A stretch of DNA of 64,000 bases from Paracoccus saliphilus (GTDB taxonomy: Bacteria > Pseudomonadota > Alphaproteobacteria > Rhodobacterales > Rhodobacteraceae): assembly GCF_028553805.1 (NCBI RefSeq), contig NZ_CP067140.1, positions 2,232,001-2,296,000 on the forward strand, in the 5' to 3' direction. Shown here one piece after another: positions 49,417 through 64,000 of this stretch. Made by a program: the position numbers and the translations under genes. The notes under the pieces were generated by a model. It was not told where the DNA came from, searched no databases, and saw only the letters and a program-made list of their open reading frames with translations. Position 1 is the stretch's first letter, and every line of letters begins with the position of its first letter.

Positions 49417-50013
49417 TCAATCAAGTGCCGTTGCGAGAAAGGCCGAACGCGTCATGATCCTCTCGACGAAATGTGAGAGCTCCGGAAAATCGGCCCTCCA
49501 GTCCAAATCCGGATAACGGAAATCGAGATATCCCAGCGCGCATCCAGTGGCGATATCGCCGATGTCATATGTCTTCCCTTGCCGGGCATCATCGCACATG
49601 ACGGCAAGGGCGTGACGGACCTTGTCCATCTGACCGTGCACCCATTCCGGCCAACGCATCGGCTCAGGCCGCAGCGTCGTCTCGTAGCGCGCGAGCAGCG
49701 CGGCTTCCATCAGACCATCGGCCAGCGCCTCGCGACGCAGAGCCCTCCACAGCGCCATTCCCTTAGGATAAAGTGGAGTCGTCTCACCCAGATAGCGGCA
49801 GATGACAGAACTGTCGTAAAGCACCTCGCCGCCAGGCAGTCGTAATGCCGGAATCCTGCCCAATGGATTGGCGTTGGTCAGGCCCTCATGCAAAGTAATG
49901 GGGCTGGCGAAGACCTCGACCAGTTCCAACTCGTGCCCGACCTCCTGCGCGACGATGCGGACCTTGCGAACGAAGGGCGAGGGTGCAGCAAAATACAGGC
50001 AGGGCACCCTCAT
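49417..50013 (-). CDS. glutathione S-transferase family protein
   Basis: A 198-residue GST-fold protein. The N-terminal domain begins VPCLYFAAPSPFVRKVRIVA with a Ser near the usual catalytic position (APSPF.RKV), then ANPLGRIPALRLPGGEVLYD with the cis-Pro, and DSSVICRYL, which holds the gamma-glutamyl binding Ser. The C-terminal helical domain has the N-capping segment YDIGDIATGCALGYLDFRY. Its ATG overlaps the TRAP large-permease stop (ATGA), so it is the fourth gene of the dctP-dctQ-dctM-GST unit. This suggests a glutathione-linked step or isomerisation in the catabolism of the TRAP substrate. Confidence 0.9.
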   Translation of the reverse strand: MRVPCLYFAAPSPFVRKVRIVAQEVGHELELVEVFASPITLHEGLTNANPLGRIPALRLPGGEVLYDSSVICRYLGETTPLYPKGMALWRALRREALADGLMEAALLARYETTLRPEPMRWPEWVHGQMDKVRHALAVMCDDARQGKTYDIGDIATGCALGYLDFRYPDLDWRADFPELSHFVERIMTRSAFLATALD

Positions 50014-51302
50014 AGAAACACTCTCGGAAGCAGCATTGATATCGTCGGAATCATCGTCAGCAGCAGCAACGCCGCCACTAGCGCGATGAAAAAGGGCCAG
50101 GCATGGCGGACGTAGTCCTCGAGCCGAACCTTGGCGATCGAGATAGTGATGAACATCATCGTCCCAACAGGCGGGGTGAAGCCCGCGATGGTCAGGTTGA
50201 CCGCCATGACGATACCGAAATGAACCGGATCGATACCTATCTGTGTCGCGACCGGTAGTAGCAGCGGCGTCATCAGGATAATCGCCGACCCTCCCTCGAA
50301 GAAGAACCCGATGAACAGCAGCAGGACATTAACAACCAGTAGGAAGATGATGGGATCATGTATCGAGACGAGAAGGAAATCCGAGAAAGCCTGCGGTATA
50401 CCTTCCCAGGTCAAGTAGGTCGAAAAGGCGTTGGCGGCGCAGATGATGAACATGACGCCTGCGGTTGCCACCACGGATTCCTCGATGATCGCGCCGACAT
50501 GCCTCCATTTCAGTTCGCGATAAATTACTGCGCCGACAAAAATGGCATAAACGACCGCGACTGCCCCAGCTTCGGTGGGCGTGAAGACCCCGAAGCGTAG
50601 CCCCATGATGATGCCGAAAGGCAGGAAAAGAGCCCAAATACTCTTGCCCAGCTGCGTGGCAATCTCGCGCAGGCTTGCCCGGCGCTCGTGTGAAGGGGCA
50701 TAGCCTCTGCGCCGCGAAATGATCGCCACGGTCACCATCAAGACAACGCAGAGCAACAAACCGGGAAGAAAACCTGCCATGAACATGCTCGCAACCGATA
50801 CGTCCGCCACGAGTGCGTAGAGGATGAGAATGATGCCAGGCGGAATGATCGGGGTTATGCAGGAGGATGCGGCCGTGACGACCGTCGAGAAGGCCTTATC
50901 GTAACCCAGCCGTACCATCTCGGGCACGATCATCTTGGTCTGCATCGCCGCATCGGCATTGGCCGATCCGGATAGTCCTCCCATCATGGCTGACAGTGCT
51001 ACATTGACCTGCGCCATACCTCCACGCAAATGCCCAAAGAGTAGGCTGGCCAGGTTCATGAGCCGTTGGGTGATGCCAGCGTAGTTGAACACAACCCCGG
51101 CGCACGTGAAGAAGGGAATCGCCAGATAGGGAAAACTCTCCATCGAGGCGACCATCGTCTGGATCATGGTTTCTTTTGGCATGAAAGTATTGACCATACC
51201 GAAGTAGAAAGCAGTTGCCATCAAAAGCGAGACTGCGATGGGCACCCTCAGAGCAAAGAGCGAAAATAGCAAGATAACGGGCGAAAACGAAAGGAGCGTC
51301 AT
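50010..51302 (-). CDS. dctM: TRAP transporter large permease (DctM), second system
   Basis: A 430-residue polytopic permease with DctM motifs: FPYLAIPFFTCAGVVFNYAG, MMGGLSGSANADAAMQTKMI, CITPIIPPGIILILYALVAD, LRFGVFTPTEAGAVAVVYAI, and a C-terminal GFTPPVGTMMFITISIAKV. It starts 37 bp after the small permease stop and overlaps the following GST gene. It forms the Na+-coupled channel for the substrate delivered by the DctP protein at 51948. Confidence 0.93.
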   Translation of the reverse strand: MTLLSFSPVILLFSLFALRVPIAVSLLMATAFYFGMVNTFMPKETMIQTMVASMESFPYLAIPFFTCAGVVFNYAGITQRLMNLASLLFGHLRGGMAQVNVALSAMMGGLSGSANADAAMQTKMIVPEMVRLGYDKAFSTVVTAASSCITPIIPPGIILILYALVADVSVASMFMAGFLPGLLLCVVLMVTVAIISRRRGYAPSHERRASLREIATQLGKSIWALFLPFGIIMGLRFGVFTPTEAGAVAVVYAIFVGAVIYRELKWRHVGAIIEESVVATAGVMFIICAANAFSTYLTWEGIPQAFSDFLLVSIHDPIIFLLVVNVLLLFIGFFFEGGSAIILMTPLLLPVATQIGIDPVHFGIVMAVNLTIAGFTPPVGTMMFITISIAKVRLEDYVRHAWPFFIALVAALLLLTMIPTISMLLPRVFL

Positions 51303-51339: not shown

Positions 51340-51873
51340 TCACAGGGACGATCCTTCGCTCAACTCGGCCGGTTCCTGAGCATTGGCGCCGTAGCGTCCG
51401 CCCTTCAGATCCCGAATGAGATGGGCCATCGAATAGATAGCCATCAGGCCGAAGGAGACCATTGGTGCGAGATTGATCCAGAAATAAGGCACCTCCAATA
51501 CCGGCGTTTTGCGCACGAAGCCACCGGCAGCCAAGGTCCAGGATAGCCAGCAGAACCAGAGGTTGGCTCCGAAAAGGGTGAGGTTCACCAAGATCGAAAG
51601 ACCACGCTGCAGGCGTGGCGGGAGCAACCCGAAGAAGATGTCGACGGAGATCAGCATCCTGGTTCGGTAAAGCCAGGCGACCGCAGCGAAGACCGACCAG
51701 GTAAAACCGATATACGCCAGCTCCTCGGTGAAGAGGAGCCCACCCCTGAAGAAGTATCGGAGGAAGACATTGGCTATGACAACGGCGAGCATGATCAGGA
51801 AGAACAGCCCGGCCACATAAAGCTCAGCTTTGTGCGCGATGGTCCGTACGCTCAAGGGACGCGAATAGGTCAT
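51340..51873 (-). CDS. dctQ: TRAP transporter small permease (DctQ), second system
   Basis: A 177-residue four-helix membrane protein. The start at 51873 (MTYSRPLSVRTIAHKAELYV) follows a GGACGG box. An upstream extension to 51993 would overlap the binding-protein gene and looks non-coding. Typical DctQ features are VIANVFLRYFFRGGLLFTEE, ELAYIGFTWSVFAAVAWLYR, and RTRMLISVDIFFGLLPPRLQ. It lies 74 bp after dctP. Confidence 0.9.
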   Translation of the reverse strand: MTYSRPLSVRTIAHKAELYVAGLFFLIMLAVVIANVFLRYFFRGGLLFTEELAYIGFTWSVFAAVAWLYRTRMLISVDIFFGLLPPRLQRGLSILVNLTLFGANLWFCWLSWTLAAGGFVRKTPVLEVPYFWINLAPMVSFGLMAIYSMAHLIRDLKGGRYGANAQEPAELSEGSSL

Positions 51874-51947
51874 CAAATACCGTCCTGGGCTTGTGCCGTT
51901 CGTAGGATGCGGGGCGCCTCTTGTTCGGCCACCCCGAATGCTGCTGC

Positions 51948-52946
51948 TCAACCGATAATCTCGTTGATCTTGTCGTAAAGCCCTGGAGTCCATTCCGGGA
52001 AGTGGTCGGGGGTTTCGGCAGCTGCCGCAAAGAAGCTTTCACGGTCGACGTCATTGAAGGTCAGACCCGCCTCTTCCAGCTTGCCGCGATATTCATCCTC
52101 GAGGGCGATAATCTGCGGCTGTCGGACAGCGGTGTAACCTCGGCCGACAGTATCGAGTGCCTTCTGCGCTGCCTCGGGAAGGTCGTCATAGACCTTTTGA
52201 GACATCAGGATCGATGTTGTCGCAACCAAATGGCCGGTAAGCGAGATATAAGGTTTGGTCTCGAACCATTTGGTCGAATAGATCACTGAAAGCGGGCTTT
52301 CGGCACCGTCCGCGACGCCCTGGCTGAGCGCGGTATAGGCTTCCGAAAAGGCGGTATTGGTGATGATTCCGCCCAGAACACGCCCAACCTCGTTCCACAT
52401 CTTGGTCGGCGCATTGCGGATTTTCAGCCCCTGGGTGTCGGTACGCTTTTCGACTTGACGATTCGACAGAAGGTGACGCGTTCCGAAATAGGTCATGGTC
52501 AGGACGCGAATACCTTGAGCCTGAACCTCCTCCTCCCAACCGCGGACAAGGTCCGAATTCCAGAGCGTGCCGATATCTTCAGGTTTCTTCACCAGATAGG
52601 GCGCCATCATGGCGGCAAAATCGGGCTTGTAGTTGTAGAGATGGGTCGGGTCGCTGTCTTGCAGGATCGGCGCCCCGCGCGAGACGGCTTCTATCATGTC
52701 ATTGGTCTTGCCCAGAGTTTCGGTCGGGTAGACCTCGACTTTCAGCGTCCCTTCGGCAGCCTCCTCGATCCGTTTTCCGAAATCCTGCCACATGGGGAAA
52801 CTCGGGTCCTGATTGCTGACCACGAGATTCATTCGCAGAAGCACCGGCGACTGCGCACGAAGGACAGTCGGCGCGGCAAGACCCGACATCGCCGCGGCCC
52901 CACCAAGAGCAAAAGTTTTCAGGAACTGCTTTCTTGTAATGGACAT
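51948..52946 (-). CDS. dctP: TRAP transporter solute-binding protein (DctP), second system, Tat-like signal
   Basis: A 332-residue periplasmic receptor. The start at 52946 follows GGGAGGAGG. The leader MSITRKQFLKTFALGGAAAM has the spacing of a Tat signal (TRKQFLK, Arg-Lys instead of Arg-Arg) and ends in LRAQ. The mature part has SFPMWQDFGKRIEEAAEGTL, VEVYPTETLGKTNDMIEAVS, and GLKIRNAPTKMWNEVGRVLG with the carboxylate-binding Arg. It heads the dctP-dctQ-dctM-GST unit. An ATGATGCATGAT element, the motif shared with two other operons here, lies about 123 bases upstream, so the nearby GntR protein probably controls it. The ligand is unknown, probably an acid sugar or polyol acid. Confidence 0.92.
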   Translation of the reverse strand: MSITRKQFLKTFALGGAAAMSGLAAPTVLRAQSPVLLRMNLVVSNQDPSFPMWQDFGKRIEEAAEGTLKVEVYPTETLGKTNDMIEAVSRGAPILQDSDPTHLYNYKPDFAAMMAPYLVKKPEDIGTLWNSDLVRGWEEEVQAQGIRVLTMTYFGTRHLLSNRQVEKRTDTQGLKIRNAPTKMWNEVGRVLGGIITNTAFSEAYTALSQGVADGAESPLSVIYSTKWFETKPYISLTGHLVATTSILMSQKVYDDLPEAAQKALDTVGRGYTAVRQPQIIALEDEYRGKLEEAGLTFNDVDRESFFAAAAETPDHFPEWTPGLYDKINEIIG

Positions 52947-53068
52947 GGATCCTCCTCCCAACGCGCATTTTTGGCGCGGTTTCCCGGCATCAGGGCGAGC
53001 CACACCCATCCGGCACTTCGTTTTCCGGCTGCCAATATTTTGACCGCCCGGATCCTCCTTTTAAATAT

Positions 53069-53080
53069 ATGATGCATGAT
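53069..53080. promoter_or_regulatory. GntR-type operator candidate 1 (ATGATGCATGAT), upstream of dctP
   Basis: A one-base variant of the perfect palindrome ATCATGCATGAT found upstream of the AroE-like operon and of the transketolase operon. It lies in the 293-bp gap between dctP and gntR, in an AT-rich patch. Both flanking genes run leftward, so it serves dctP. No gene was seen in the rest of the gap. Confidence 0.65.
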
Positions 53081-53239
53081 GCGTGGCGCGCGTCAAGAGG
53101 TTTATATGGCTGGTTTTCAAACCGATTGATGACTCTCAATTGTACAACATGGCTACGGGCACATCTTCTCATGCCACCAGCTCCCGCCGGCGACGAAAAG
53201 ATCAGTTCAGATGAATGAATTTTGCTTACACGCGTCGTA

Positions 53240-53920
53240 TCATCGGAGAACTGATCCATCCGAGAGCTCGGCCCCGATCTCACGGATGAGGTCTTCGGCC
53301 CAGGCGATGTCCTCCTGTATGGCCTTTCGACTGCGCTCCTGATTGCCGGAAGCAAGGGCGTCGAGAAGTTCGTGATGCTTGTGTTCATCGCTGGCGATTT
53401 CACGCACAGGCATCCTTATGTGGAACAGTCGCAGGAGCGGGCCAATCAATGTCCACATATTCTCGCAAAGCCCAACCAATAGCGGCATGCCGGACATGCG
53501 CAACAGCGCGAAATGAAAATTGCGGTTCAGAATGCTGGCCTTGGCCGGGTCGCGCGCCGCCGCGGCAATGAATCGGGCGTGAATCTCGCGTAGCTCGTCC
53601 AACTCCTCGGGCGTGATCCGCGCAGCCGCCTCATAGGCCGCACGCCCCTCGAGCTCTTGGCGAATTGCCTGGATTTCCAGAAGTTGCACGGTGTCAAACC
53701 GCGGGACCTGAAAAGAGGTTGCGGCACGCATCTGCAACGCGCGCTCGCTAACAAGCCGGAAAATCGCCTCGCGAACCGGCGTAATAGAGGTGCCATATTC
53801 CTCGGCAAGACCGGCAATCGTCAGTCGGTGCCCAGGTTCATACTGACCGTTCATCAGTGCCAGTCGGAGGCTTTCGTAAAGTTGTGCCGACAGGTTCAGA
53901 CGAACGATTTTCTTATCCAT
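53240..53920 (-). CDS. GntR-family regulator, FCD (FadR) subfamily
   Basis: A 226-residue regulator. The N-terminal winged helix reads YESLRLALMNGQYEPGHRLT, LAEEYGTSITPVREAIFRLV. The C-terminal FCD domain has EIQAIRQELEGRAAYEAAAR, the metal-ligand type Asp/His positions around NRNFHFALLRMSG, and DEHKHHELLDALASGNQERS. FCD proteins bind small carboxylates, usually as repressors relieved by the substrate or an intermediate. It is last in the AroE-like to VOC operon, 12 bp after the VOC gene. Three ATCATGCATGAT-type sites before the operons of this region are its likely targets, including its own promoter. Confidence 0.92.
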   Translation of the reverse strand: MDKKIVRLNLSAQLYESLRLALMNGQYEPGHRLTIAGLAEEYGTSITPVREAIFRLVSERALQMRAATSFQVPRFDTVQLLEIQAIRQELEGRAAYEAAARITPEELDELREIHARFIAAAARDPAKASILNRNFHFALLRMSGMPLLVGLCENMWTLIGPLLRLFHIRMPVREIASDEHKHHELLDALASGNQERSRKAIQEDIAWAEDLIREIGAELSDGSVLR

Positions 53921-53932
53921 GTCATTCCATCC

Positions 53933-54421
53933 TTATCCGCGCGGTTTCTCGACAATCTCGATCAATACACCGTGCGGATCCATCATATACAATCCTCGGC
54001 GGCCTTTGGCGATGCCTTCAGTGATCGCAACCATCCGGCCCTGTTCGCGCCCACCTCCGGCAAGAATGCGCGCCCGCAGCGCGTCTACGTCGGAGGTCAT
54101 CAGGCAGACATGTGCCACATTCCCCTGCGATGCGCGAGTGCCGGATGGGCTATCCTTTGGCGCCTTGAGCTCGATGAACTCGAGATGTGTGCCATGGCCG
54201 AACAGATGCACCAACCGGGCCTGCGCGCCCTCGACTCCCATGAAACCGCCAAGCCATTCCTGATGGCGCACACCAATAGGCTGAGCCTCGAAACCCAACA
54301 CATCCTGCCAGAACCGCACCGACGTTTCCATATCCGGAGTGATGAAACCGGTATGGTCGAAACTGATGTCGGGCAGCGCTGGCAGCTCCGCTGCGCAATC
54401 CGTTTTCGCTGCATCTGTCAT
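53933..54421 (-). CDS. VOC (glyoxalase/dioxygenase superfamily) protein
   Basis: A 162-residue protein with two beta-alpha-beta-beta-beta modules. Possible metal ligands are the His in SFDHTGFIT, the Glu in HLEFIELKAP, the His in VAHVCLMTSD and the Glu in GVLIEIVEKP. This is a complete 2-His-2-Glu set as in glyoxalase I or methylmalonyl-CoA epimerase. It overlaps the enolase-superfamily gene (ATGA), so the two are co-translated. It could be an epimerase, a lyase or a glutathione-dependent enzyme. The GST in the linked TRAP operon makes the last option worth considering. No substrate can be assigned. Confidence 0.85.
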   Translation of the reverse strand: MTDAAKTDCAAELPALPDISFDHTGFITPDMETSVRFWQDVLGFEAQPIGVRHQEWLGGFMGVEGAQARLVHLFGHGTHLEFIELKAPKDSPSGTRASQGNVAHVCLMTSDVDALRARILAGGGREQGRMVAITEGIAKGRRGLYMMDPHGVLIEIVEKPRG

Positions 54422-55527
54422 AGAATTAGAACCTCCCTTCGAGAAATGAACGATTGCATGGCCTCCCAGTCGAGCGCCAAGCCCGTGCCCGGTGTCTCGG
54501 GCGCGACCAGCATGCCCGCCTCGATGCGGATCGGCTGTGTCAGGAAACTTTCGATGGGATCGGCCCCCAGTTCAGGCAAGATTGCCTCGATACGCGAAAC
54601 CGCCTGATCGGCAAAGCCAAGATGCTGATGAAGCGAGGCAAAGACATGGGGAATGACCGCCTTGCCATACACACGCGCCAAGGCCAGCCCATCCAGCACA
54701 TAGCCGATTCCGCCCGAAGCCGCAGCGTCCAGACGCAGGATATCCGCCCCCTCGGCCATGTCGCGCAGCGCCGCAAGATCGATAGCGTCCTCGCCCAGGC
54801 AAACCGGCACCTCGGTGTGCCGGCGCAGTTCTGCCGCGATGCGCCAATCCGTTGGTGCCACGGGATCCTCAAGAAACAGTGCGCCGGTTTCTTCGGCCAA
54901 TCGGCACCAGGGCAATGCGTCCTGCGCCCGCCGCCAAGACCAGTGTGCATCGAGACCAAAGCGCACCCCTTCGGGCAAGGCCGACTTCAGGGCGCGGACC
55001 ACGTCGCGGTCAAAGGCGAAATCGCTGCCGTCGATCATCAGCTTAATGGTACGAAAGCCGCGCTGCGCCAGGGCCGCGCCCTGTTCCGCCGCGACCTGCG
55101 GACTCATGCCGTATCCGATGACGGGCATCAGCTCTATGCGGTCGCGCAGGGTCCCCAGCATGGCGTGCAGCGGCAGCCCCCGGACCTGCGCCTCGGCGTC
55201 CCACAGGGCAATATCGCAAAGCGACACACCCCGAACCATGGTCGCGCGTGGCGCGGGCGTGGGTCCAAGGGACTCGTGCCGCAGGCGCGCCTTGTGGGCC
55301 AGCGGATGCCCAAGATACCGCCGAGCGGCCTCGACCGCGATCTCGAACAGCGGCATGCCGCGGTCATAACCATAAGCATAGCCCACCGCCCCGCCGTCCA
55401 GTTCCAGCCGCAATGCCACATAGGCCCGCTCGCGGATCGGCATCGGGCCCAGCCGGACGGGATGCTCCAGCGGGATGACCAGCCGCAGCACCTCTATCCG
55501 GGTGATCGTTTCCGGTGTTTTGGTCAA
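54418..55527 (-). CDS. mandelate racemase/muconate lactonizing enzyme family protein, atypical active site
   Basis: A 369-residue enolase-superfamily protein. Metal ligands are Asp in GLDAHW, Glu in FLEDPV and Glu in LGEDAI. The barrel-strand-2 motif is TIKLMIDG, so the first Lys is present and the second is Met. A His lies in VIPHVFASLHQHLG near the seventh strand. The N-terminal capping domain includes MPIRERAYVALRLELDGG and GYAYGYDRGMPLFE. This set differs from galactarate dehydratase at 13637 and from the KxH enzyme at 6533. Dehydration, racemisation or cycloisomerisation of a sugar acid or lactone is possible. It overlaps both the SDR and VOC genes by four bases in a tightly coupled operon. 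Confidence 0.88.
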   Translation of the reverse strand: MTKTPETITRIEVLRLVIPLEHPVRLGPMPIRERAYVALRLELDGGAVGYAYGYDRGMPLFEIAVEAARRYLGHPLAHKARLRHESLGPTPAPRATMVRGVSLCDIALWDAEAQVRGLPLHAMLGTLRDRIELMPVIGYGMSPQVAAEQGAALAQRGFRTIKLMIDGSDFAFDRDVVRALKSALPEGVRFGLDAHWSWRRAQDALPWCRLAEETGALFLEDPVAPTDWRIAAELRRHTEVPVCLGEDAIDLAALRDMAEGADILRLDAAASGGIGYVLDGLALARVYGKAVIPHVFASLHQHLGFADQAVSRIEAILPELGADPIESFLTQPIRIEAGMLVAPETPGTGLALDWEAMQSFISRREVLIL

Positions 55528-56330
55528 CTCGACGCCCCAAGGTTCTGACTTTCCACCAACAGCGAATTGCTGGTCATGCCGCCGTCGACCATCAGCAACT
55601 GACCCGTCACGAAGCTGGCCGCATCCGAGGCGAGAAAGATCGCAGTCCCCGTCAGCTCTTCCGGTTTGGCCCAGCGCGACATGGGGGTGCGGTCGATCAC
55701 CACCTGCTCGAAGGGCGTGCCAAGCACATGGCGGTTCATCTCGCTCAGGATATAGCCGGGGCCGATCGAGTTGACAGTGATATTATGCGACCCAAGTTCT
55801 GCGGCCAGTCCCCGGGTCAGGCCCAGAACCCCATGCTTGGCCGCCACATACGAGATGACGCCCGGCCGCGAGGAAATCGACATAACCGAGCCGGTATTGA
55901 TGATCCGTCCCCTGCCCTGCGCCTTCATCGGCCGTGCACAGGTCCGCGCCATCGCATAAACGGCATTCAAGTTGATATCGATGACACGGGAAAATTCCTC
56001 CATCCCGTGATCTTCGATCGGCGCACGGATCAGGATACCGGCATTGTTCATCAAGATGTCGAGCCGGCCCGAGGCGGCGACAAGACGATCTACTTGCGCG
56101 TCAAGCCCGTCGAAATCGGTGACATCGAAGACAGCAGGAACTGCCCGGCCACCCGCCGTCTGAATGGCGTGGCAGGCCTCTTCGGCCGTTTCGCTGCGCA
56201 GGTCGTTTATGATGACTTGCGCACCGGCGCGCGCTAGCGCCTGCGCGAAGGCAAAGCCGATGCCGCGACCCGCGCCGGTGATCAGGGCGACGCGGCCCTC
56301 GAGCGAGAACTGGTTCAGATCAGGGGTCAT
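55524..56330 (-). CDS. SDR family oxidoreductase, gluconate 5-dehydrogenase-like
   Basis: A 268-residue classical SDR. The nucleotide loop is TGAGRGIGFAFA, with NDLRS after strand 2, FDVTD, NNAGI, GSVMS carrying the catalytic Ser and YVAAKHG with the Tyr-Lys pair. A C-terminal SNSLL tail is present. The GR.ALITGAGRGIG start, ISSRPG and SEMNRHVL-like region resemble gluconate/idonate 5-dehydrogenases, which interconvert a secondary alcohol and a keto group on sugar acids. It lies one base after the GldA-like gene and overlaps the enolase-family gene. The substrate is inferred only as a sugar acid or polyol. Confidence 0.86.
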   Translation of the reverse strand: MTPDLNQFSLEGRVALITGAGRGIGFAFAQALARAGAQVIINDLRSETAEEACHAIQTAGGRAVPAVFDVTDFDGLDAQVDRLVAASGRLDILMNNAGILIRAPIEDHGMEEFSRVIDINLNAVYAMARTCARPMKAQGRGRIINTGSVMSISSRPGVISYVAAKHGVLGLTRGLAAELGSHNITVNSIGPGYILSEMNRHVLGTPFEQVVIDRTPMSRWAKPEELTGTAIFLASDAASFVTGQLLMVDGGMTSNSLLVESQNLGASS

Positions 56331-56331
56331 G

Positions 56332-57402
56332 TCACGCAGCCTCGATCCGGCCGATAGCTTCGGCGATGTCGTTCGCCGTGATCTCGCGCGCGAATTTCTT
56401 CATATGCGCGGCCGCCGCAGAGAGTTCCGCGATGGTCTGCACTGTCGAGTTCGAAGCCTGATCCGCACCAAGTTCGGAAAGTTTCAGTGGTAATTTCGCC
56501 GCGCGATAGAATTCGCGCATATCGGCCATAAATTGCGGATCGCGGTTTTCCAGTTCCAGCTGGACAAGCAGCCCATAGGCCACTTGGTGGCCATGCAGTG
56601 CGGTCGCCACTCCGGGTACAGCGGACAATCCGCGCGTCATGCCATGGCTGACCGACAGGCCACCGCTTTCGAATGCCAGGCCACTCATCAGGACCGCAGC
56701 CTCGACCAACGCTTCGAAGGCGGCATTGGGTTTACCTTTGGCATGAGCCGCATAGGCGCCGACCAGGTTTTCACGCACAGTCGTGTAGCAGGCGCGCGCC
56801 AGCGCCAGCGCGGTCAGCGGCGAGCCAGCGCCAAAGACGTTCTTGCCGCCCGCGCCGATGCATTGCTCGACTTCGAAGACCTTGACCAATGCATCGCCCA
56901 CACCGGCAGAAAGCAGTTCGATGGGGGCCTTGATGATAATGTCGGTGTCGACCAGCACCAGTTCAGGATTGCCCCGGTTTTCCTCGACCCCGACCAGCTT
57001 GTGCTGATCGTCATAGATCACCGCGATATGGCTGGTCGGCGAGTCGTTGGAGGCCACGGTCGGGACCGACACGAAATGTGCGCCGATGTCGCGCGCCACG
57101 ATTTTGCCGGTATCGATGGTCTTGCCGCCGCCAGCGCTGATGACGATGTCAGTCGGTGCATCGCCGATCCGGGCAACGATGCGGGCGATTTCGTCATAGG
57201 TGACTTCACCACCAAAGGGCATCAGGGTCAGAGCGACCCCCTCGGCCTCGGCGCTTTGGCGAACCGTTTCGCCACACATTTTCATCACCCGTTCGTCAGC
57301 GATGAAAACCGCCGATTTGCCGATGGCTCCGAGTTCTTTTCCAATGTCGCCCAGCACACCAGGCCCTTGCACATAACGGCGGGGCGCTCCGAATACAATC
57401 AT
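56332..57402 (-). CDS. glycerol dehydrogenase-like (GldA, iron/zinc-type) dehydrogenase
   Basis: A 356-residue member of the GldA branch of the iron-alcohol dehydrogenase superfamily. Seen are PRRYVQGPGVLGDIGKELGA, AGGGKTIDTGK for the nucleotide, PTVASNDSPTS, and the metal ligands Asp in LLSAGVGDALVK, His in VSHGMTRGL and His in ALHGHQVAYG. GldA oxidises glycerol to dihydroxyacetone with NAD. In this operon, with an SDR and a linked transketolase, it may act on another vicinal diol or polyol. It follows the AroE-like gene by 12 bp. Confidence 0.88.
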   Translation of the reverse strand: MIVFGAPRRYVQGPGVLGDIGKELGAIGKSAVFIADERVMKMCGETVRQSAEAEGVALTLMPFGGEVTYDEIARIVARIGDAPTDIVISAGGGKTIDTGKIVARDIGAHFVSVPTVASNDSPTSHIAVIYDDQHKLVGVEENRGNPELVLVDTDIIIKAPIELLSAGVGDALVKVFEVEQCIGAGGKNVFGAGSPLTALALARACYTTVRENLVGAYAAHAKGKPNAAFEALVEAAVLMSGLAFESGGLSVSHGMTRGLSAVPGVATALHGHQVAYGLLVQLELENRDPQFMADMREFYRAAKLPLKLSELGADQASNSTVQTIAELSAAAAHMKKFAREITANDIAEAIGRIEAA

Positions 57403-57414
57403 CTTGTCCTCCTG

Positions 57415-58248
57415 TTAAGCTGTGTCGCCGGCCGCTCCGTTAGCAGCAGGACCGAGCACGAAATCAATGAATGGGTCGATCTGTCCGGCGATCATTGCAT
57501 CGCCCGAAACAGTCTCGGCCCCGCGGATTTCTGCCTCGCGCAGCAGCGCTGTGATCTTCGGCATCATGATTACTTCCGCGACCGTCATGCCGGGCGCGAT
57601 GGATTCCGCCAGCATGGGGAGCGCGTCGCCCTCATGCATGCCAAGCGAGGTCGCATTGATGGCAATATCGAAGCCTGCGGGATCGGCCGCTCCGATCTCC
57701 AACACGATTGAAGTGCTCCGGTTGTCGGCCAGCCTCCGCAGGCGTGCAAGCATAGACTCGGCTCGTGGCTGTGTGCGGTTGGCAACGCGTAATCGCGCGA
57801 TGCCGGCCTCGATCAGCGCTGCGGCAATGGCCAGCGCCACGCCTCCGGCACCGACAATCAATGCCGAGCGTCCACCGATCGCGACATTATGTGCACGCAA
57901 CCCACCGACAAAACCGTCCCCGTCCAGGATGCGACCAGTCAGCGTACCGTCGGGTTCACGCCGTATCACGTTGGCGACTTCCAGGGTTTCTGCGACTCCA
58001 TCCAGCCGATCGCAGAGTCGTGCTGCGTTTTCCTTGTGCGGAATGGTCACTATAGCGCCGGCCAGGCTCTCCGCCTTGCGTAATGCTTCCATGGTGGCAG
58101 ATAGATCTTCGGACCGCACCTGCCAGGGCACAAGCACCGCATTCACACCGCGTTCGACACAGCGGGGATTGAAGCGCTGCGGGGTCTGAAGATGCGCCGC
58201 TGGATAGGCCAAATGCACCAGCACGGCCGTGACTCCATCGATTTGCAT
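57415..58248 (-). CDS. shikimate dehydrogenase-like protein with altered substrate pocket
   Basis: A 277-residue AroE-fold protein. It keeps the catalytic Lys in VTIPHKENAA, the Asp in ILDGDGFVGG, the NADP-type loop VGAGGVALAIAAAL, NRTQPRAE and INATSLGMHEGD. The carboxylate-binding residues of shikimate dehydrogenase are changed. The HSxSP motif reads HLQTP (Ser to Leu and Ser to Thr), and the Asn of NVT reads Ile (IVT). So shikimate itself is an unlikely substrate. A cyclic or acyclic polyol or hydroxy acid is more plausible. First gene of the operon that ends with gntR, with an ATCATGCATGAT site about 30 bases upstream of its ATG. Confidence 0.85.
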   Translation of the reverse strand: MQIDGVTAVLVHLAYPAAHLQTPQRFNPRCVERGVNAVLVPWQVRSEDLSATMEALRKAESLAGAIVTIPHKENAARLCDRLDGVAETLEVANVIRREPDGTLTGRILDGDGFVGGLRAHNVAIGGRSALIVGAGGVALAIAAALIEAGIARLRVANRTQPRAESMLARLRRLADNRSTSIVLEIGAADPAGFDIAINATSLGMHEGDALPMLAESIAPGMTVAEVIMMPKITALLREAEIRGAETVSGDAMIAGQIDPFIDFVLGPAANGAAGDTA

Positions 58249-58277
58249 ACTTCTCTCCCATTACCTTGTCATAAAAC

Positions 58278-58289
58278 ATCATGCATGAT
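58278..58289. promoter_or_regulatory. GntR-type operator candidate 2 (ATCATGCATGAT), upstream of AroE-like operon
   Basis: A perfect 12-bp palindrome, 30-41 bases upstream of the AroE-like start. The 3' context TATTTGAT resembles that of the transketolase site (TATATGAT follows the same core). The position would block RNA polymerase, consistent with repression. Confidence 0.75.
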
Positions 58290-58355
58290 ATTTGATTGTC
58301 GTCAAGCGGCGTGATTTCGCAATCATGCGCCCAAAGAGGAAAAAGCACACTGACA

Positions 58356-58920
58356 ATGGTGCTAGCTTTGGATCAGCCACGCAGTTTGCGTATCGAAAAT
58401 CGCGCCTTGCCTGATCCGGGCCCCGGCGAGCTTCGTGAGCGCATCGGCCAGACACGCTGGCGTGGCAGAGATCATCGTCACCGATGTTGCCCGGGCACCA
58501 CTGGAACTGGCTGAAAGTTTGGGCGCAAATGGCGCCTATGACAGCAGCCAGTCGGCCGCGTTGGGCGAGCTGACCAATGGGGGCGGCGAGATGGACTTGA
58601 CGCTGGAATGTTCTGCCCAACCCGCAGCCATTGCCGACGCCATCGCCGCCACCGGCCCATGTGGCACCATCGTTCAGGTCGGCATGCTCGGCACCGAGAC
58701 CACCGCACCTTTGACCCATGTGGTGACGAAGGAATTGAACTTTCGCGGCACTTTCCGCTTCGACGTGGAGTTCCCACAGGCTGTTCGGCTGATCGCCGAG
58801 CGGCACATCGATGTCCGCCCGTTGATCTCCAGACGCTTTCCGCTGGCCGAGGCCGAAGCGGCCTTTGCCATGGCGCAAGATCACGGACGAGCGATGAAGG
58901 TGCTATTTGACCTGAACTGA
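58356..58920 (+). pseudogene. L-idonate 5-dehydrogenase-like MDR gene with internal deletion
   Basis: The 5' end encodes MVLALDQPRSLRIENRALPD followed by PGPGEL, the N-terminal strand pair of an IdnD or sorbitol-dehydrogenase-like MDR enzyme. About 78 bases from the ATG the frame changes and the text jumps into the Rossmann half: RHAGVAEIIVTDVARAPLEL, AESLGANGAYD, LECSAQP, IVQVGMLGTETTAPL, ending AMKVLFDLN. Roughly 170 residues, including the zinc-binding catalytic part, are missing at the junction near 58433. The 3' portion is open and well preserved, so the deletion is probably recent. IdnD belongs with the polyol and gluconate-type dehydrogenases next door. Confidence 0.8.
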
Positions 58921-58972
58921 GGACCGCCAATCGCAGGTGTGCTGAACCCCACAGCCATTTCATGAAGAGCGA

Positions 58973-58999
58973 CGACGGTCCCGTGGCTCGGGACCGTCG
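58973..58999. terminator. strong hairpin between convergent genes
   Basis: A perfect 11-bp stem (CGACGGTCCCG / CGGGACCGTCG) with a TGGCT loop. It lies 52 bases after the idnD-like pseudogene stop and 61 bases before the transketolase stop on the other strand. There is no clear T-run on either side, so it is a probable bidirectional terminator of uncertain strength. Confidence 0.65.
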
Positions 59000-59060
59000 C
59001 CTTCGGCCGATCGGCGATTAAATTGGATCCGGACCGACCGATGCCATCCGAGGCACTGGA

Positions 59061-60041
59061 TCAGAGCAGCGCCTGTGCCACATCACGGATGCCGGGCCCG
59101 TCCAGCTTGTAATGCTGGTACAGCCTCATCGGTGGCGAGATGAGTGCATATTCATCCATGATCCCATGCCGCTTGAGCCGGGCCCTTCCAGGGCTCTCCG
59201 CCATGATCTCGGCGACGGCCGAGCCTAGCCCACCAAGGATATTATGCTCCTCGACCGTCAGCACGATCCGAGATGTTTGCGCAGCCTCCAGCACGGCCGC
59301 CTCGTCCAGTGGCTTGATCGTGTGCATATCGACCAACCCCACCGAATGACCGGCCTCGTTCAGCGCCTCAACCGCCTGTTTCGCTCCATGCACTGCCATG
59401 CCACAGGCGATGATGGTGATATCCTTGCCGATGCCATGAACTTTGGCCTTGCCGATTTGGAAAGAGTCGTTGCGATCATAAACGACGGGATCGTGCCCGC
59501 GCCCGATGCGAAAATAGATAGGCAACGGATAAGTTGCCGAATGTCGCAACAATTGACGGAATTGGGCGCCATCTGCGGGTGAGATCACAGCAAGATCGGC
59601 AATAGCACGCATGGTCGAGATATCCTCGGTCGCGTGATGAGAAGTGCCGTAAAAACCCATCGAGATGCCGGTGTGATGGCCAATCATCCGCACCGGCTGA
59701 GCACAATAAGCTACATCCATGCGGATCTGTTCACAGGTTAAGAGCCCAAGAAAGGAAGCAAAGGTCGCGACATAGGGGATCATCCCCGTCGTGGCCATGC
59801 CCGCTGCGGCCGAAACCATATTTTGTTCCGAGATCCCGAACTGCACGAAACGATCGGGATGGGCTTCGGCGAATTTGACCAAGCCGTTGGAGTGCTGCAG
59901 ATCGGCTGTTCCAGCAGCGACGGGATGACCCTCGGCAGCCAGTTCAATAAGCGTGTCTGCGAGAACAGAAAGGCTGGGAGCGCGGGAGTTCAGGTCGCGA
60001 TACTGCCAGCTTTCAGGGGTCAGATCGGGTTTGGCGTTCAT
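59061..60041 (-). CDS. transketolase, C-terminal subunit
   Basis: A 326-residue protein matching the pyrimidine-binding and C-terminal domains of transketolase, as a separate subunit. It has ELAAEGHPVAAGTADLQHSN, the catalytic Glu in FVQFGISEQNMVSAAAGMAT, MIGHHTGISMGFYGTSHHAT, DLAVISPADGAQFRQLLR, and VDMHTIKPLDEAAVLEAA. It overlaps the N-terminal subunit gene by four bases. The enzyme transfers two-carbon ketol units. Split transketolases often serve special pathways rather than the pentose phosphate cycle. The shared operator suggests this one acts on the product of the GldA/SDR/enolase operon. Confidence 0.92.
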   Translation of the reverse strand: MNAKPDLTPESWQYRDLNSRAPSLSVLADTLIELAAEGHPVAAGTADLQHSNGLVKFAEAHPDRFVQFGISEQNMVSAAAGMATTGMIPYVATFASFLGLLTCEQIRMDVAYCAQPVRMIGHHTGISMGFYGTSHHATEDISTMRAIADLAVISPADGAQFRQLLRHSATYPLPIYFRIGRGHDPVVYDRNDSFQIGKAKVHGIGKDITIIACGMAVHGAKQAVEALNEAGHSVGLVDMHTIKPLDEAAVLEAAQTSRIVLTVEEHNILGGLGSAVAEIMAESPGRARLKRHGIMDEYALISPPMRLYQHYKLDGPGIRDVAQALL

Positions 60042-60904
60042 TGCGTGCCTCCGCTGATGCGGGTGTTCAAGATGGTTTGGCGAGCTTTCTCGCTGTCTTC
60101 GGGCGAGAGATAGCCAAGATGCCAGCCCGGCTCAGTCTCCATGTAGTCGACGCCACGGCCTTTCACGGTTTTTGCTATCACGCAGCATGGTTTGTCACGG
60201 TTCTTATCGGCCTTGACCCTGCGCAGCATCGAGGTCAGGGCGACAACGTCATGACCGTCGACCTCGTGCACCTCCCAACCGAAAGCGCGCCATTTCTCGG
60301 CCAATGGTTCGATGGCCATGACATCATCCACTTTGCCGTCCAGTTGGTAGCCGTTCCGGTCGATGATGGCGACTACATTGGACAGCTTGTGGCTTGCGGC
60401 CGAGATCGCGGCTTCCCAGACCTGCCCCTCCTGCATTTCACCGTCTCCGAGCATGACGAAGACGGTGAAATCAAGATCGCGCATCCGCCCGCCAAGCGCC
60501 ATGCCAACGCCGTTCGACAGCGCGTGTCCAATGGAACCCGAGCTGAAATCAACGCCGGGGACTTTGCGCATGTCAGGATGATCCCCCAAAGGGCTGCCAA
60601 GACGGGTGTAGCTGTCCAGCCATTCCTCGGGAAAATAACCCTTGTCGGCGAGAATCGGGAAAAGCCCTACAGCTGCGTGCCCCTTACCCATAAGGAAACG
60701 ATCCCGTAGCGGCCAATTCGGATCATCGCTGATCTTCATGACATCATAATAAAGAGAGGCGAAAATCTCGGCACAGGAAAAGACCGACGAATAATGCCCG
60801 ACCTTGGCGATCTCGATCAGTCTGATCGTCTCCAGCCGGACGAAGCGAGCTCGATCTTCAAGCCTATCAATCTGCTCCGCTGAAATATCGGTGTTCACCG
60901 TCAC
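60038..60904 (-). CDS. transketolase, N-terminal subunit
   Basis: A 288-residue protein matching the TPP-binding N-terminal domain of transketolase. The start is GTG at 60904 after a GGGAGGAT box. Seen are RLIEIAKVGHYSSVFSCAEI, FLMGKGHAAVGLFPIL, GSPLGDHPD, SSGSIGHALSNGVGMA, the TPP motif GDGEMQEGQVWEAAISAASH with IDRN, and KTVKGRGVDYME. The operon contains only the two transketolase subunits. A perfect ATCATGCATGAT site lies about 89 bases upstream, linking it to the GntR regulon. No sugar kinase or transaldolase is present nearby. Confidence 0.93.
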   Translation of the reverse strand: MTVNTDISAEQIDRLEDRARFVRLETIRLIEIAKVGHYSSVFSCAEIFASLYYDVMKISDDPNWPLRDRFLMGKGHAAVGLFPILADKGYFPEEWLDSYTRLGSPLGDHPDMRKVPGVDFSSGSIGHALSNGVGMALGGRMRDLDFTVFVMLGDGEMQEGQVWEAAISAASHKLSNVVAIIDRNGYQLDGKVDDVMAIEPLAEKWRAFGWEVHEVDGHDVVALTSMLRRVKADKNRDKPCCVIAKTVKGRGVDYMETEPGWHLGYLSPEDSEKARQTILNTRISGGTQ

Positions 60905-60992
60905 GCTTATCCTCCCATGATCAGGGTTAGGGCTGCGGGCCGTCGCAGCTATTCCAAGCGATCTTTAGCCTTCCAATATCCTTTCGTCAAGC

Positions 60993-61004
60993 ATCATGCA
61001 TGAT
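60993..61004. promoter_or_regulatory. GntR-type operator candidate 3 (ATCATGCATGAT), upstream of transketolase operon
   Basis: A perfect 12-bp palindrome followed by ATATGATAATT. It lies 89-100 bases before the transketolase N-subunit start. The same 12-mer occurs at 58278-58289, and a one-base variant at 53069-53080. Confidence 0.75.
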
Positions 61005-61586
61005 ATATGATAATTGCATAGCTGGTAGCCAAACAGTTTTCCCAGAACCCACTTCTGAGGATCCGTAGCGTGACGACCTTGACCACTCTCCTCCAGAACC
61101 TGCGTTTGCTATGATGCGCGGCGACTTCGCTCCGCTTGGCGGGGCCCTTCACGACAGAATTCGGACGCTGGTAGCGTCCCCGCCATGACATCGTATCTGG
61201 CCGATCGTGTGACGCGTCTGAAAGCACAATCGGGGGTAAAGGACAGTTCTGTGTGCCAGCGGATGAAGAACTGGCCGCCTGACTGCAGCTAAAAATGAAC
61301 CAACACATGCGACCAATGGGCATCGTTGCATCGGGTGTTGGCAGTTGGCCATAGATTCCGCCTGTCCAGTTGCCGGCGCGGTGCTTGCCGGAAGCGTCTG
61401 ACTTAGCCTCCGTCTCAAGCATTGGGGAATGGCAAGATTCCGATCAGAAACCCTGCCACGCCAAGGTAAACTGACAAGGATAACGCCGAACTTCCTGCAA
61501 ATCCCCAACACGGCAAATGCCCGGGCCCGAGGCTCTCTCCGCATGGATACCGAGATCAAGCTTGTGGGCATGTAATCCGCGCGCCC
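61005..61586. other. intergenic region, no recognised gene
   Basis: About 580 bp between the transketolase operator and the iolB stop. Overlapping minus-strand frames exist but none shows a family signature or ribosome-binding site. A 7-bp hairpin (GGACGCT / AGCGTCC) lies at 61163-61179. The region marks a junction between the GntR regulon and the more G+C-rich iol block, so it may be scar sequence. Confidence 0.45.
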
Positions 61587-62381
61587 TCACATGAGTTGTT
61601 CCACTTCCGGCGCCGGCACGAAACGCCAATTCCTGCGCGGTCCTGCCATGACATTGAGGTAATAGAGTTCGAAGCCATAGGGAGCCCCACAGGGATGATG
61701 GCCACGCGGCACCAGCACCACGTCATGGTTCCGCACCGCCATCACCTCGTCAAGACTGCCGTCATCGGTATAGACCCGCTGCACGGCCCAGCCATCCACC
61801 GGATTCAGGCGATGGTAATAGGTCTCTTCCAGATAGGTGATGCGCGGAAAATCGTCCTCGTCATGGCGATGGCTGGGATAGCTGGACCAATGCCCGGCTG
61901 GCGTGAACACTTCGGTCACCAGCAGGCTGTCGCAGTAATCCTCGGCCTCCATCGCGATATTGTTGATATAGCGGGTATTACCGCCCTTTCCCCGCTCGGT
62001 CAGGGAAATGCCATCCGGTCCGATCCGGCGCGCTTCATGCCCCCCCCGTCCGGGGGCCGTGCAGACCGCGATGGTGCAATCACTCTCGGCCACGGCGCGC
62101 CACTCCGCACCATTGGGCACATAAAGGCAATGCGGCGGGGTCTTCTCGAACACATCCATCCGCTCGCCCAGCACACCCCAATCCCGGCCCGCGGCATGAA
62201 ACGCGGCCTTGCCCTCGACCATGACCAGGATGACCTCGTTGCTGCCGGTCGCCTCCTCGGCGCTCTCTCCGGGCCGCAACCGGTAAAGGGAAAATCCCAC
62301 GTATCGCCAGCCCGCATCCGCTGGCGTGATCTGGTGGGTCTTGCCGTGGCTGCCGAACGGTCTGCGCAGTAGCTGGCTCAT
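61587..62381 (-). CDS. iolB: 5-deoxy-glucuronate isomerase
   Basis: A 264-residue bicupin isomerase converting 5-deoxy-D-glucuronate to 2-deoxy-5-keto-gluconate in myo-inositol catabolism. The start at 62381 (MSQLLRRPFGSHGKTHQITP) follows GGGACGAGG; the longer frame includes intergenic hairpin sequence. The second cupin carries the metal-binding SSYPSHRHDEDDFPRITYLE with the His and Glu ligands, followed by EETYYHRLNP and LVPRGHHPCGAPYGFELYYL with the last His. These motifs are diagnostic for IolB. It lies downstream of iolE, separated by an 87-bp gap with two hairpins. Confidence 0.95.
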   Translation of the reverse strand: MSQLLRRPFGSHGKTHQITPADAGWRYVGFSLYRLRPGESAEEATGSNEVILVMVEGKAAFHAAGRDWGVLGERMDVFEKTPPHCLYVPNGAEWRAVAESDCTIAVCTAPGRGGHEARRIGPDGISLTERGKGGNTRYINNIAMEAEDYCDSLLVTEVFTPAGHWSSYPSHRHDEDDFPRITYLEETYYHRLNPVDGWAVQRVYTDDGSLDEVMAVRNHDVVLVPRGHHPCGAPYGFELYYLNVMAGPRRNWRFVPAPEVEQLM

Positions 62382-62423
62382 CCTCGTCCCTTTCTTCTTC
62401 ATCCAAATATCCTCGGGGGTGAA

Positions 62424-62460
62424 TTGGCCGCAGGCCAAGAGGGGGCGCGAGCGCCCCCTC
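62424..62460. terminator. double hairpin between iolE and iolB
   Basis: Two adjacent inverted repeats lie eight bases past the iolE stop and onward. One is a 9-bp stem GAGGGGGCG / CGCCCCCTC (62439-62460). The other is TTGGCC-GCA-GGCCAA (62424-62438). On the iolB strand a CACCCCCGAGGATATTTGGA stretch follows. I associate this hairpin plus GAGGATATTT layout with Rhodobacteraceae intergenic repeats. It may partially terminate, or protect the iolDE message. Confidence 0.6.
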
Positions 62461-62468
62461 GCCCACGG

Positions 62469-63383
62469 TCACGCAGCGGCATTCCGGTCGAGTCCCGCAG
62501 TGACGGCCATCCGGCGCAGTGCATCATACCCCATGCGCTGGTAATGCAGGGGCTCGCGGATGGCGCTGTCCTGCTCGGCCTCGATCACCAGCCAGCCCTG
62601 ATAACCATGCTCGGCGGCAATCTTCAGCGCCGGCTCGAAGGCGACACAACCCTCGGGATCGCCCGGCACAGTGAAGGCGCCCCGCTTCACTCCCTCGATA
62701 AAGCTCAGCCCCTCGGCGCGCACCTGCTCCATGACGGGTCGGCGGATATTCTTGCAATGGATATGCCCCACCCGGTCCATATGCTTCCGCGCCACCTCCG
62801 CCGGATCCGCGCCGCCGAACAGGCAATGCCCGGTATCCAGCAACAGCTTCACCTCGGGCCCTGCCGCCGCCATGAAACGGTCGATATCAGCAGAGCTTTC
62901 CACACAGGTCCCCATGTGGTGATGATAGCAGAAACGCATCCCCTGCGCGCTCGCGTGATCGGCCAGCGCATTGATCCCGGCCATGAAGCGTTCCCATTCA
63001 CCATCCGACAGGACGGGGCGGTCATTCACTGGCACATCCGGGCGGCCATGCACGGTGTTCGAGCATTCGCAGACGATCAGAACATCCGTGCCCGCCGCTT
63101 TCGACATGGCGATATGCGCATCCATCGCGGCCTTCTCGGATTCCAGCGTCGAACCATCGGCAAGAATATTGGTCGAATGCCAGCCGCCGATAAAGCGCAG
63201 TCCGTAAGCGCCCAGGGCCAATTTCAACGCCGCACCCTCCGAGGGCATCTTGTGGCCCTTCTCGATTCCGTCGAAACCGATCTCGCGGCAATCGGACAGG
63301 CAGTCATCCAGGCTCAGATGATCGCCGATCGAGTGGTCGTCGTCATTCGACCAGGCAATCGGATTGGTGCCATAGAAAATCAT
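62469..63383 (-). CDS. iolE: myo-inosose-2 dehydratase
   Basis: A 304-residue TIM-barrel protein of the xylose-isomerase-like family. It dehydrates 2-keto-myo-inositol to 3D-3,5/4-trihydroxycyclohexane-1,2-dione. The start at 63383 ([20 protein letters not shown]) gives the typical IolE opening. Metal- and substrate-binding segments are [59 protein letters not shown] and WLVIEAEQD. It lies 10 bp after iolD. Confidence 0.95.
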
Positions 63384-63393
63384 CGCGTTTCCC

Positions 63394-64000
63394 TCAATTC
63401 GCAAGGCTCTGCCGTGCGGCATGGCCCAGATATTCGGCATAGGCCCGTTTCAGCTTCTCGCTGCCGGCCACCTCCGGCACGGCGACATCCCACCAATGGC
63501 CCGCCGCTTCCAGACCGTCGCCCGGCCCCGGCGCAGCGGTGGTGTCGATCACGATCACGGTCGGGATGTCGCGGGTTCGCGCCGCCGCGATCTGCGCCTC
63601 CAGATCGGGGATGCCCGTTGCCTTCACCGCATGAGCGCCCATGCTGGCGGCATGTGCAACAAAGTCGATCTGCGGCTGCGCCTCGACATTGCAGTGCTTG
63701 TAGAGATTGTTGAACTCTTCCCCGCCGCAGCCCTGTTGCAGCCGGTTGATACAGCCATAACCGCGATTGTCGGTCAGGATCACGGTAAAGGGGATGCGCC
63801 GCATCACCGCCGTCGCCAGTTCGGAATTCGCCATCATGTAACTGCCATCGCCCACGAAGCACAGAACCTCGCGGTCCGGCTGCGCCAGCTTCAGCCCCAT
63901 CGCGCCCGCGATCTCGTAGCCCATGCAGCTATAGCCATATTCCATGTGATAGCCGCCCTGTGCGGCCTGCCAGAGCAGCTTCAAGGCGCCCGGCATCGTT
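63394..64000 (-). CDS. iolD: 3D-(3,5/4)-trihydroxycyclohexane-1,2-dione acylhydrolase, 5' part outside window
   Basis: The C-terminal third of a TPP-dependent ring-opening hydrolase of myo-inositol catabolism. The frame is open to the right edge, so the start is outside the window. Visible are [20 protein letters not shown], the TPP motif [19 protein letters not shown] with [13 protein letters not shown], and [20 protein letters not shown] at the end. [11 protein letters not shown] and GYGCINRLQ are characteristic of IolD rather than acetolactate synthase. First visible gene of the iolD-iolE-iolB series. Confidence 0.95.

Follow-up and report, generated by a model that had tools for sequence, protein, structure and literature searches.

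Gene content of the island

The DNA analysed here (the window) is a stretch of 64,000 nucleotides from the Paracoccus saliphilus contig NZ_CP067140.1, positions 2,232,001 to 2,296,000, and holds a catabolic gene island in which a short palindromic word stands ahead of three transcription units. We examined this word as a predicted operator of the GntR-type regulator encoded within the island, together with the pathway that such a regulator may control. The three units begin with the genes of a split transketolase, of an AroE-like dehydrogenase and of the solute receptor (DctP) of a tripartite ATP-independent periplasmic (TRAP) transporter, and the genes and candidate operator copies are, in window coordinates:

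49417..50013, minus strand: glutathione S-transferase (GST), from Pfam and NCBIfam; homologue in 11 of 16 relatives' loci
50010..51302, minus strand: DctM, TRAP large permease; homologue in 12 of 16 relatives' loci (partial in L047)
51340..51993, minus strand: DctQ, TRAP small permease; homologue in 11 of 16 relatives' loci
51948..53009, minus strand: DctP, TRAP solute receptor, from NCBIfam and solved relatives
53069..53080, minus strand: candidate operator copy 1, read on the coding strand as ATCATGCATCAT, preceding dctP; TTGAC starts 16 bp ahead
53240..53920, minus strand: GntR regulator of the FCD type, encoded at the end of the AroE-like operon, from PF00392 and PF07729
53933..54421, minus strand: VOC-fold protein, from Pfam and NCBIfam
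54418..55527, minus strand: enolase-superfamily protein of the acid-sugar dehydratase type, from Pfam, NCBIfam and alignment
55524..56330, minus strand: short-chain dehydrogenase/reductase (SDR), gluconate-5-dehydrogenase-like, from Pfam and NCBIfam
56332..57402, minus strand: GldA-like iron-type alcohol dehydrogenase, from Pfam and NCBIfam
57415..58248, minus strand: AroE-like dehydrogenase without the SxS motif, from Pfam and NCBIfam
58278..58289, minus strand: candidate operator copy 2, ATCATGCATGAT, located between the AroE-like operon and the IdnD-like relic; TTGAC starts 16 bp ahead
58350..58920, plus strand: relic of an L-idonate 5-dehydrogenase-like (IdnD-like) zinc alcohol dehydrogenase; the middle is missing and the start piece is not in frame with the C-terminal half
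59061..60041, minus strand: split transketolase C-terminal subunit with GFYGTSHHATED, from Pfam
60038..60904, minus strand: split transketolase N-terminal subunit, from Pfam; best PDB match 6yak
60993..61004, minus strand: candidate operator copy 3, ATCATATATCATGCATGAT plus a third half-site, ahead of the split transketolase genes; TTGAC follows after 2 bp

The families that an earlier note had named for the three operons from the letters alone proved right in the Pfam and NCBIfam searches, in which the regulator scored above the cut-offs for both of its domains (PF00392, 49.4 bits; PF07729, 81.6 bits). NCBIfam cut-offs were passed by only three of ten proteins, at the level of glycerol dehydrogenase (GldA-like), glucose 1-dehydrogenase (SDR) and TRAP receptor (DctP). 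The earlier count of two or three dehydrogenases needs correction, since relatives have four and the fourth, left off the earlier list, is represented here by the broken IdnD-like relic, whose C-terminal piece of about 156 residues is 68% identical to residues 187-342 of the protein at locus L038. Elsewhere in the same genome there are IdnD-like genes of 45-47% identity and succinate-semialdehyde dehydrogenase (SSADH)-like genes of 65% identity.

A recurrent palindromic word in the window and its genome

The 12-mer ATCATGCATGAT occurs exactly at 58278-58289 and 60993-61004 and with one change at 53069-53080, positions that agree with the earlier note. Two exact copies compare with 0.02 expected, and at least two were seen in 0 of 100 shuffles of the window. 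The changed copy has the form ATCATGCATCAT on the coding strand, which also occurs upstream of dctP in relatives. The copies lie 88 bp ahead of the transketolase N gene, 29 bp ahead of the AroE-like gene and 59 bp ahead of the listed dctP start. When mismatches are allowed the window is not enriched, either for the 12-mer with at most two mismatches (6 found against 4.38 expected) or for the degenerate word ATSATGCATSAT with at most one (3 against 1.37 expected; at least three in 14 of 100 shuffles), so it is exact copies and conservation that make the case for an operator.

A search of the whole genome (4.62 Mb), which the earlier note had proposed as a check, found the motif to be rare and local, with four exact 12-mers and ATSATGCATSAT in five places, three of them in the window. 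Both copies outside the window are inside long open reading frames (ORFs), named by eye as a heme-type ABC ATPase and an FAD-linked oxidase, and in both they code for the peptide IMHD. At one mismatch or fewer there are 21 places, and among the 19 examined (58278 and 60993 left out) 17 are inside ORFs of at least 120 amino acids, the 53069 copy is overlapped by nothing more than a 141-codon stop-to-stop frame, and no frame overlaps the place at C1:2306144. The window copies do overlap short mechanical frames, e.g., 58279-58884 and 60994-61422 on the minus strand; we read them as non-coding because they are placed in gaps between real genes and ahead of operons.

The place at C1:2306144 (L031:10144-10155) reads ATCATTCATGAT and stands upstream of an inositol-type ABC receptor gene; it is possibly a weak fourth site or a chance occurrence, about one such non-coding site being expected by a rough reckoning.

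Conservation at the same promoters in related islands

Homologue searches gave at least 97 enolase-type proteins (E ≤1e-40, among 7997 candidates listed) and 384 GntR homologues (E ≤1e-30), and a contig scan with an alignment of 48 enolase-type proteins led to 18 loci. Twelve of these (L038-L049) carry all or part of the island, L048 and L049 being two contigs of one Devosia assembly and L047 holding only enolase, VOC and GntR genes with pieces of TRAP; the other six (L050-L055) have no island, just a distant enolase, in some cases with unrelated SDRs. A plasmid collection added four more islands, from Agrobacterium pusense, A. tumefaciens, A. fabrum and Bosea vaviloviae. All seven plasmid records matched by the enolase query were typed conjugative, and the five that were opened, one of them L040, all carry the island (two Sinorhizobium records of 37% identity stood outside these five). 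The hosts comprise Rhizobium/Agrobacterium, Chelativorans, Jiella, Roseovarius, Bosea, Devosia and Vreelandella, with identities to the window proteins from 35% (DctQ, L042) to 90% (transketolase C half, L040), a range that excludes a 27% DctP match of L047.

The genes kept together are the two transketolase halves, the IdnD-like zinc alcohol dehydrogenase, the AroE-like, GldA-like, SDR, enolase, VOC and GntR genes, and GST and TRAP in either order, a co-occurrence in keeping with the neighbourhood comparison that had been suggested. The IdnD-like gene is intact in 12 of the 16 relatives' loci (at least 90% coverage, the reference copy of L039 not counted) and divergent from the AroE-like operon in all but two Bosea loci (L085 and L046), in which an ABC sugar importer replaces TRAP and the IdnD-like gene is inside the importer operon. 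An SSADH-like aldehyde dehydrogenase gene, often adjacent and missed by the earlier note, is present in 10 of the 16 loci (L039-L044, L048, L082-L084; at least 59% identity to the L042 protein). The FCD-type GntR gene, already recognized as lying inside the set, is present wherever an island locus extends over its position; only the cut contig L048 is without it.

Exact ATSATGCATSAT was found in 39 of 43 upstream regions from 16 loci, the three window regions included, whereas 200 dinucleotide shuffles averaged 0.025 and never exceeded 1 (L047, with GntR and no site, and the island-free L050-L055 were left out). The four misses were the L038 transketolase (one mismatch) and AroE (two mismatches) promoters, the L085 ABC operon (no site) and the L082 AroE promoter, where a site is present at 7258 and overlaps the annotated start, hence falling outside the cut region. 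Information averaged 1.82-1.85 bits per column in the sites compared with 0.18-0.37 for flanking positions at a distance of over 20 bp (10, 9 and 9 loci, after removal of L042, L082, L083, L084 and L085 as close to kept loci); the sites were aligned on their best match, which in itself raises the values of their columns. In many cases a third half-site, similar to ATSAT, comes next with a spacing of 7 bp; judged by eye, the window shows it clearly ahead of the transketolase genes and only weakly at the AroE-like and dctP promoters.

The same locality is seen in eight relatives' genomes, which belong to 8 of the 12 island-bearing contig loci (without L045, L047, L048 and L049): the island or its immediate surroundings hold 22 of the 31 exact sites, and of the other nine, eight are inside ORFs of at least 100 codons and one is a lone non-ORF site (L060, Chelativorans). 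One exact copy in Rhizobium sp. RM (L042:372-383) stands 35 bp ahead of the listed start of a gene for an MHS-type transporter, which adjoins the transketolase genes, an example of how the operator could be used to find further members of the regulon.

That the word is a chance repeat or a coding artefact would agree with its coding for IMHD and its occurrence inside ORFs of this and other genomes, and with the short frames overlapping the window sites. The window sites are nevertheless in promoter gaps, at a near-fixed distance from a -35-type box and at the same promoters as in relatives, and we rejected this explanation as having a negligible probability, given that 39 of 43 regions carry the word where shuffles average 0.025, and that genomic copies are mostly inside ORFs. 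As an observation on its own, ATCATGCATGAT within ORFs often codes for IMHD (L003, L004, L061, L062, L088, L089, L091) and is a source of false operator calls.

Given that distant relatives carry this palindromic word at the corresponding promoters, the set's own GntR repressor very probably binds there. The proposal of a GntR regulon with a motif upstream of three operons is thus supported by strong comparative evidence at the level of sequence, the same three promoters carrying the word in islands whose proteins are 35-90% identical.

No second island was found among 394 genomes of the family and 385 of the class (E ≤1e-70), the genome analysed here being the single hit in each set; the rarity in its own family is therefore 1 of 394, and the single congener searched is without the island. 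A near-identity plasmid search returned two matches, neither of them complete (18% and 13% of the query covered), and the window island sits on a 4.38-Mb contig. Taken together, conjugative plasmid carriage and rarity within the family suggest a distribution shaped by horizontal spread.

Promoter geometry and proposed control

In the window, TTGAC begins at -16 relative to the operator at the AroE-like and dctP promoters and at +14 at the transketolase promoter. A survey of relatives (L038-L045) gave nearly the same offsets: TTGAC begins 16 or 17 bp before the operator at AroE promoters in seven of eight (none in L039), 15 or 16 bp before it at dctP promoters in seven of eight (at -10 in L045), and 14 or 15 bp after the operator's first base at transketolase promoters in six of eight (none in L040; +14 in L038 in a separate site alignment). 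The promoter scan found TTGACG-16-CATGAT and TTGACG-16-CATCAT at the first two of these operators, the second hexamer being the operator's second half. This near-fixed distance suggests repression by covering the promoter.

The explanation that we consider best, with a probability of about 0.7, is that the three sites are operators of the island-encoded FCD-GntR protein, through which it represses three units of an acid-sugar island. The sites, their geometry and conservation, and the gene families can be read from the DNA itself; binding by GntR, repression as the direction of control, an inducer and the order of the reactions are predicted from them. Without inducer, GntR would occupy ATSATGCATSAT, filling the spacer and the -10 box of the AroE-like and dctP promoters or abutting the -35 box of the transketolase promoter, and would thereby shut all three transcription units, its own included, until a pathway compound releases it. 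FCD-type (FadR subfamily) GntR proteins that act as local repressors of acid-sugar operons are a known class. The island resembles them in the GntR and FCD domains, in short palindromic operators at adjacent catabolic operons and in the position of the regulator gene inside the set, and differs in its operator, which has the word ATSATGCATSAT and a third half-site spaced by 7 bp.

Several observations weigh against parts of this explanation. The S positions of the word were picked after these loci had been viewed, and the 43 regions are not independent, since L042, L082 and L083 are near-duplicates and one divergent site was counted for two promoters in both L046 and L085. The departures at L038 (two mismatches at AroE, one at transketolase) and the lack of a site at the Bosea L085 ABC operon count here as well, as does L047, which has enolase, VOC and a GntR protein of 56% identity yet no site within one mismatch. 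As a whole, the promoter scan of the window was not enriched (7 found against 5.2 expected). Similar words also stand close to paralogous GntR genes: a paralogue in the same genome (40% identical; C1:3316652, L030:1449-1460) has ATGATGCATCAA about 40 bp upstream and another in genome G137 (36%; L024:1433-1444) has an exact ATGATGCATGAT just upstream, so the ATGATGCAT-type word is common to a wider GntR group and not exclusive to the island regulator. On the side of the pathway, the window has neither an intact IdnD-like gene nor an adjacent SSADH-like gene, and the specific route considered below leaves the AroE-like, GldA-like, VOC and GST proteins unexplained and has no direct support.

The paralogues also bear on whether the sites are operators of, or shared with, another GntR-family protein. 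A GntR search of 198 genomes returned, besides the query, only paralogues of 36-44% identity; among 14 paralogue loci, the two just named carry ATGATGCAT-type words just upstream and a third (L028) a one-mismatch word downstream. Against such cross-talk, the sites are accompanied by the island's own GntR gene, including on plasmids, and the recognition region, which is GTSITPVRE without variation in all 12 island GntR proteins aligned, reads GTSSTPVRD in both the own-genome and the G137 paralogue. Operators of or shared with such a protein seem to us quite improbable. By eye, the paralogous gene in the same genome stands beside peptide-ABC and aminotransferase genes (L092).

Enzyme features and the putative pathway

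There is precedent for a split transketolase that acts on an unphosphorylated keto-sugar. In the island, the transketolase domains PF00456, PF02779 and PF02780 are spread over two genes, as in the split-chain enzyme of Carboxydothermus (6yaj, 6yak), which is the best PDB match for both halves. The Carboxydothermus (6yaj) and human transketolases have a GEDG motif of functional importance, whereas the island enzyme has GFYG (GFYGTSHHATED) in all 14 islands, and because GFYG replaces GEDG this speaks for an unusual substrate.

In the enolase-type protein, D193, E220, E246, D267 and H294, which we take to be three metal-ligand acids and a His-Asp dyad, are invariant in 48 sequences. The best solved matches are 5xd7 (3,6-anhydro-L-galactonate cycloisomerase) and 2pp0 (L-talarate/galactarate dehydratase) for the alignment profile and 2og9 for the single sequence. 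Relative to enzymes of the 5xd7/2pp0 type, the metal-ligand and His-Asp columns are kept; the KxK motif is replaced by KxM (K162 invariant, M164 in at least 90% of the 48 sequences) and DAN by DAH.

The relatives' IdnD-like proteins have the IdnD equivalog as clearly their best model without reaching its cut-off (331-358 bits against 469 in three of them), and among sugar-acid models the SDR matches gluconate 5-dehydrogenase best, likewise below that cut-off. No gluconate kinase was noticed among the conserved genes, in which no kinase profile search was made. Compared with the E. coli-type L-idonate/gluconate (idn) pathway, the island thus has a similar pair of an IdnD-like medium-chain dehydrogenase/reductase (MDR) and a gluconate-5-dehydrogenase-like SDR, both below those cut-offs; there is a TRAP or ABC importer and a split transketolase instead of a noticeable kinase.

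The earlier note had left the substrate between a sugar acid and a polyol. An acid appears likelier, because the TRAP receptor and the enolase-type dehydratase, IdnD-like and gluconate-5-dehydrogenase-like families point to acid sugars, and the polyol is judged less likely; the acid-sugar reading is backed by the IdnD-like MDR, the SDR, the SSADH-like aldehyde dehydrogenase (ALDH) and the dehydratase-type enolase. In the scheme that we propose, TRAP would import an acid sugar and several dehydrogenases would move its carbonyl, while the dedicated split transketolase would cut the carbon chain and pass the ketol to the pentose-phosphate pool and the enolase-family enzyme would dehydrate an acid product; a role in handling reactive carbonyls is possible for VOC and GST.

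A carbocyclic substrate would give the AroE-like protein a different role: here a shikimate- or cyclitol-like ring would have its hydroxyls oxidized by the AroE-like, SDR and GldA-like enzymes, and the thiamine diphosphate-dependent enzyme would cleave an alpha-hydroxyketone. Membership of the AroE family fits (PF08501 and PF01488 above cut-off, with TIPHK and the aspartate before GxGF kept), as do the inositol-type genes (by eye) that adjoin the window island, the iol-like or LacI/ABC genes at L038 and L040, and an operator-preceded transporter in Rhizobium (L042) whose best equivalog model is a shikimate transporter, although this too falls below its cut-off (300 against 538). Shikimate dehydrogenases bind the substrate's carboxylate through an SxS motif, present as HSxSP in 2egg, 1nvt, 3tnl and 1npd; in 14 of 14 island proteins it is replaced by HLxTP or HVxTP, and the best AroE equivalog score is 133.5 bits against a cut-off of 252. 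With an MDR and an SDR that moreover resemble idonate and gluconate enzymes, degradation of a carbocycle is unlikely. The solved relatives of the AroE-like protein include a 5-ketofructose reductase.

The solved relatives of DctP include the isethionate receptor 8t9t (E 2.3e-18), which, with the precedent of a split transketolase for an unphosphorylated keto-sugar, would suit a sulfo-transketolase-type route for a sulfo-sugar. Among the genes conserved in at least three loci, none stood out as a sulfo-sugar isomerase or a sulfonate lyase, though no profile search was made for either, and to our knowledge the enolase and IdnD-like enzymes have no part in the sulfo-transketolase route; we regard this alternative as very unlikely.

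Returning to acid sugars, the specific route that is our best guess would lead from a 5-keto-aldonate, cleaved by the transketolase, through a tartaric-semialdehyde-type acid and a tartrate-type acid to oxaloacetate. We put it forward tentatively, because it fits the MDR, SDR, transketolase and ALDH and not the other genes. A transketolase and a succinate-semialdehyde dehydrogenase have been proposed for the conversion of 5-keto-gluconate to tartrate in PMC12016104, where the cut of 5-keto-gluconate to tartaric semialdehyde is termed enigmatic. The island shares with that route transketolase and SSADH-like genes accompanied by 5-keto-forming dehydrogenase families; the route described there uses a mutant transketolase, whereas the island has a dedicated split enzyme whose substrate is a prediction. 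Taken further, the island could encode a natural kinase-free pathway, on conjugative plasmids in several relatives and under one GntR operator, in which a dedicated split transketolase with a remodelled active site splits a 5-keto-aldonate that carries no phosphate (one example would be 5-keto-D-gluconate formed when idonate or ascorbate is broken down), giving a C4 semialdehyde acid that is oxidized to a tartrate-type acid and then dehydrated to oxaloacetate. This fuller version is speculative and rather doubtful; were it true, the transketolase step would supply a natural enzyme for the cut of 5-keto-gluconate to tartaric semialdehyde.

A search of the open-access literature gave no description of the gene set, nor of the 12-mer, which occurred only under unrelated titles. 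What had been a guess from one sequence becomes a defined and testable regulon present in several bacterial families.

Flanking genes

Inositol-type genes, recognized by eye as iolB, iolE, iolD, an iolC-like kinase, an ABC transporter and LacI regulators, adjoin the island (window 61587-64000 and L031 1-12000). Elsewhere, LacI/ABC genes flank the Jiella island (L040) and iol-like genes the Vreelandella island (L038).

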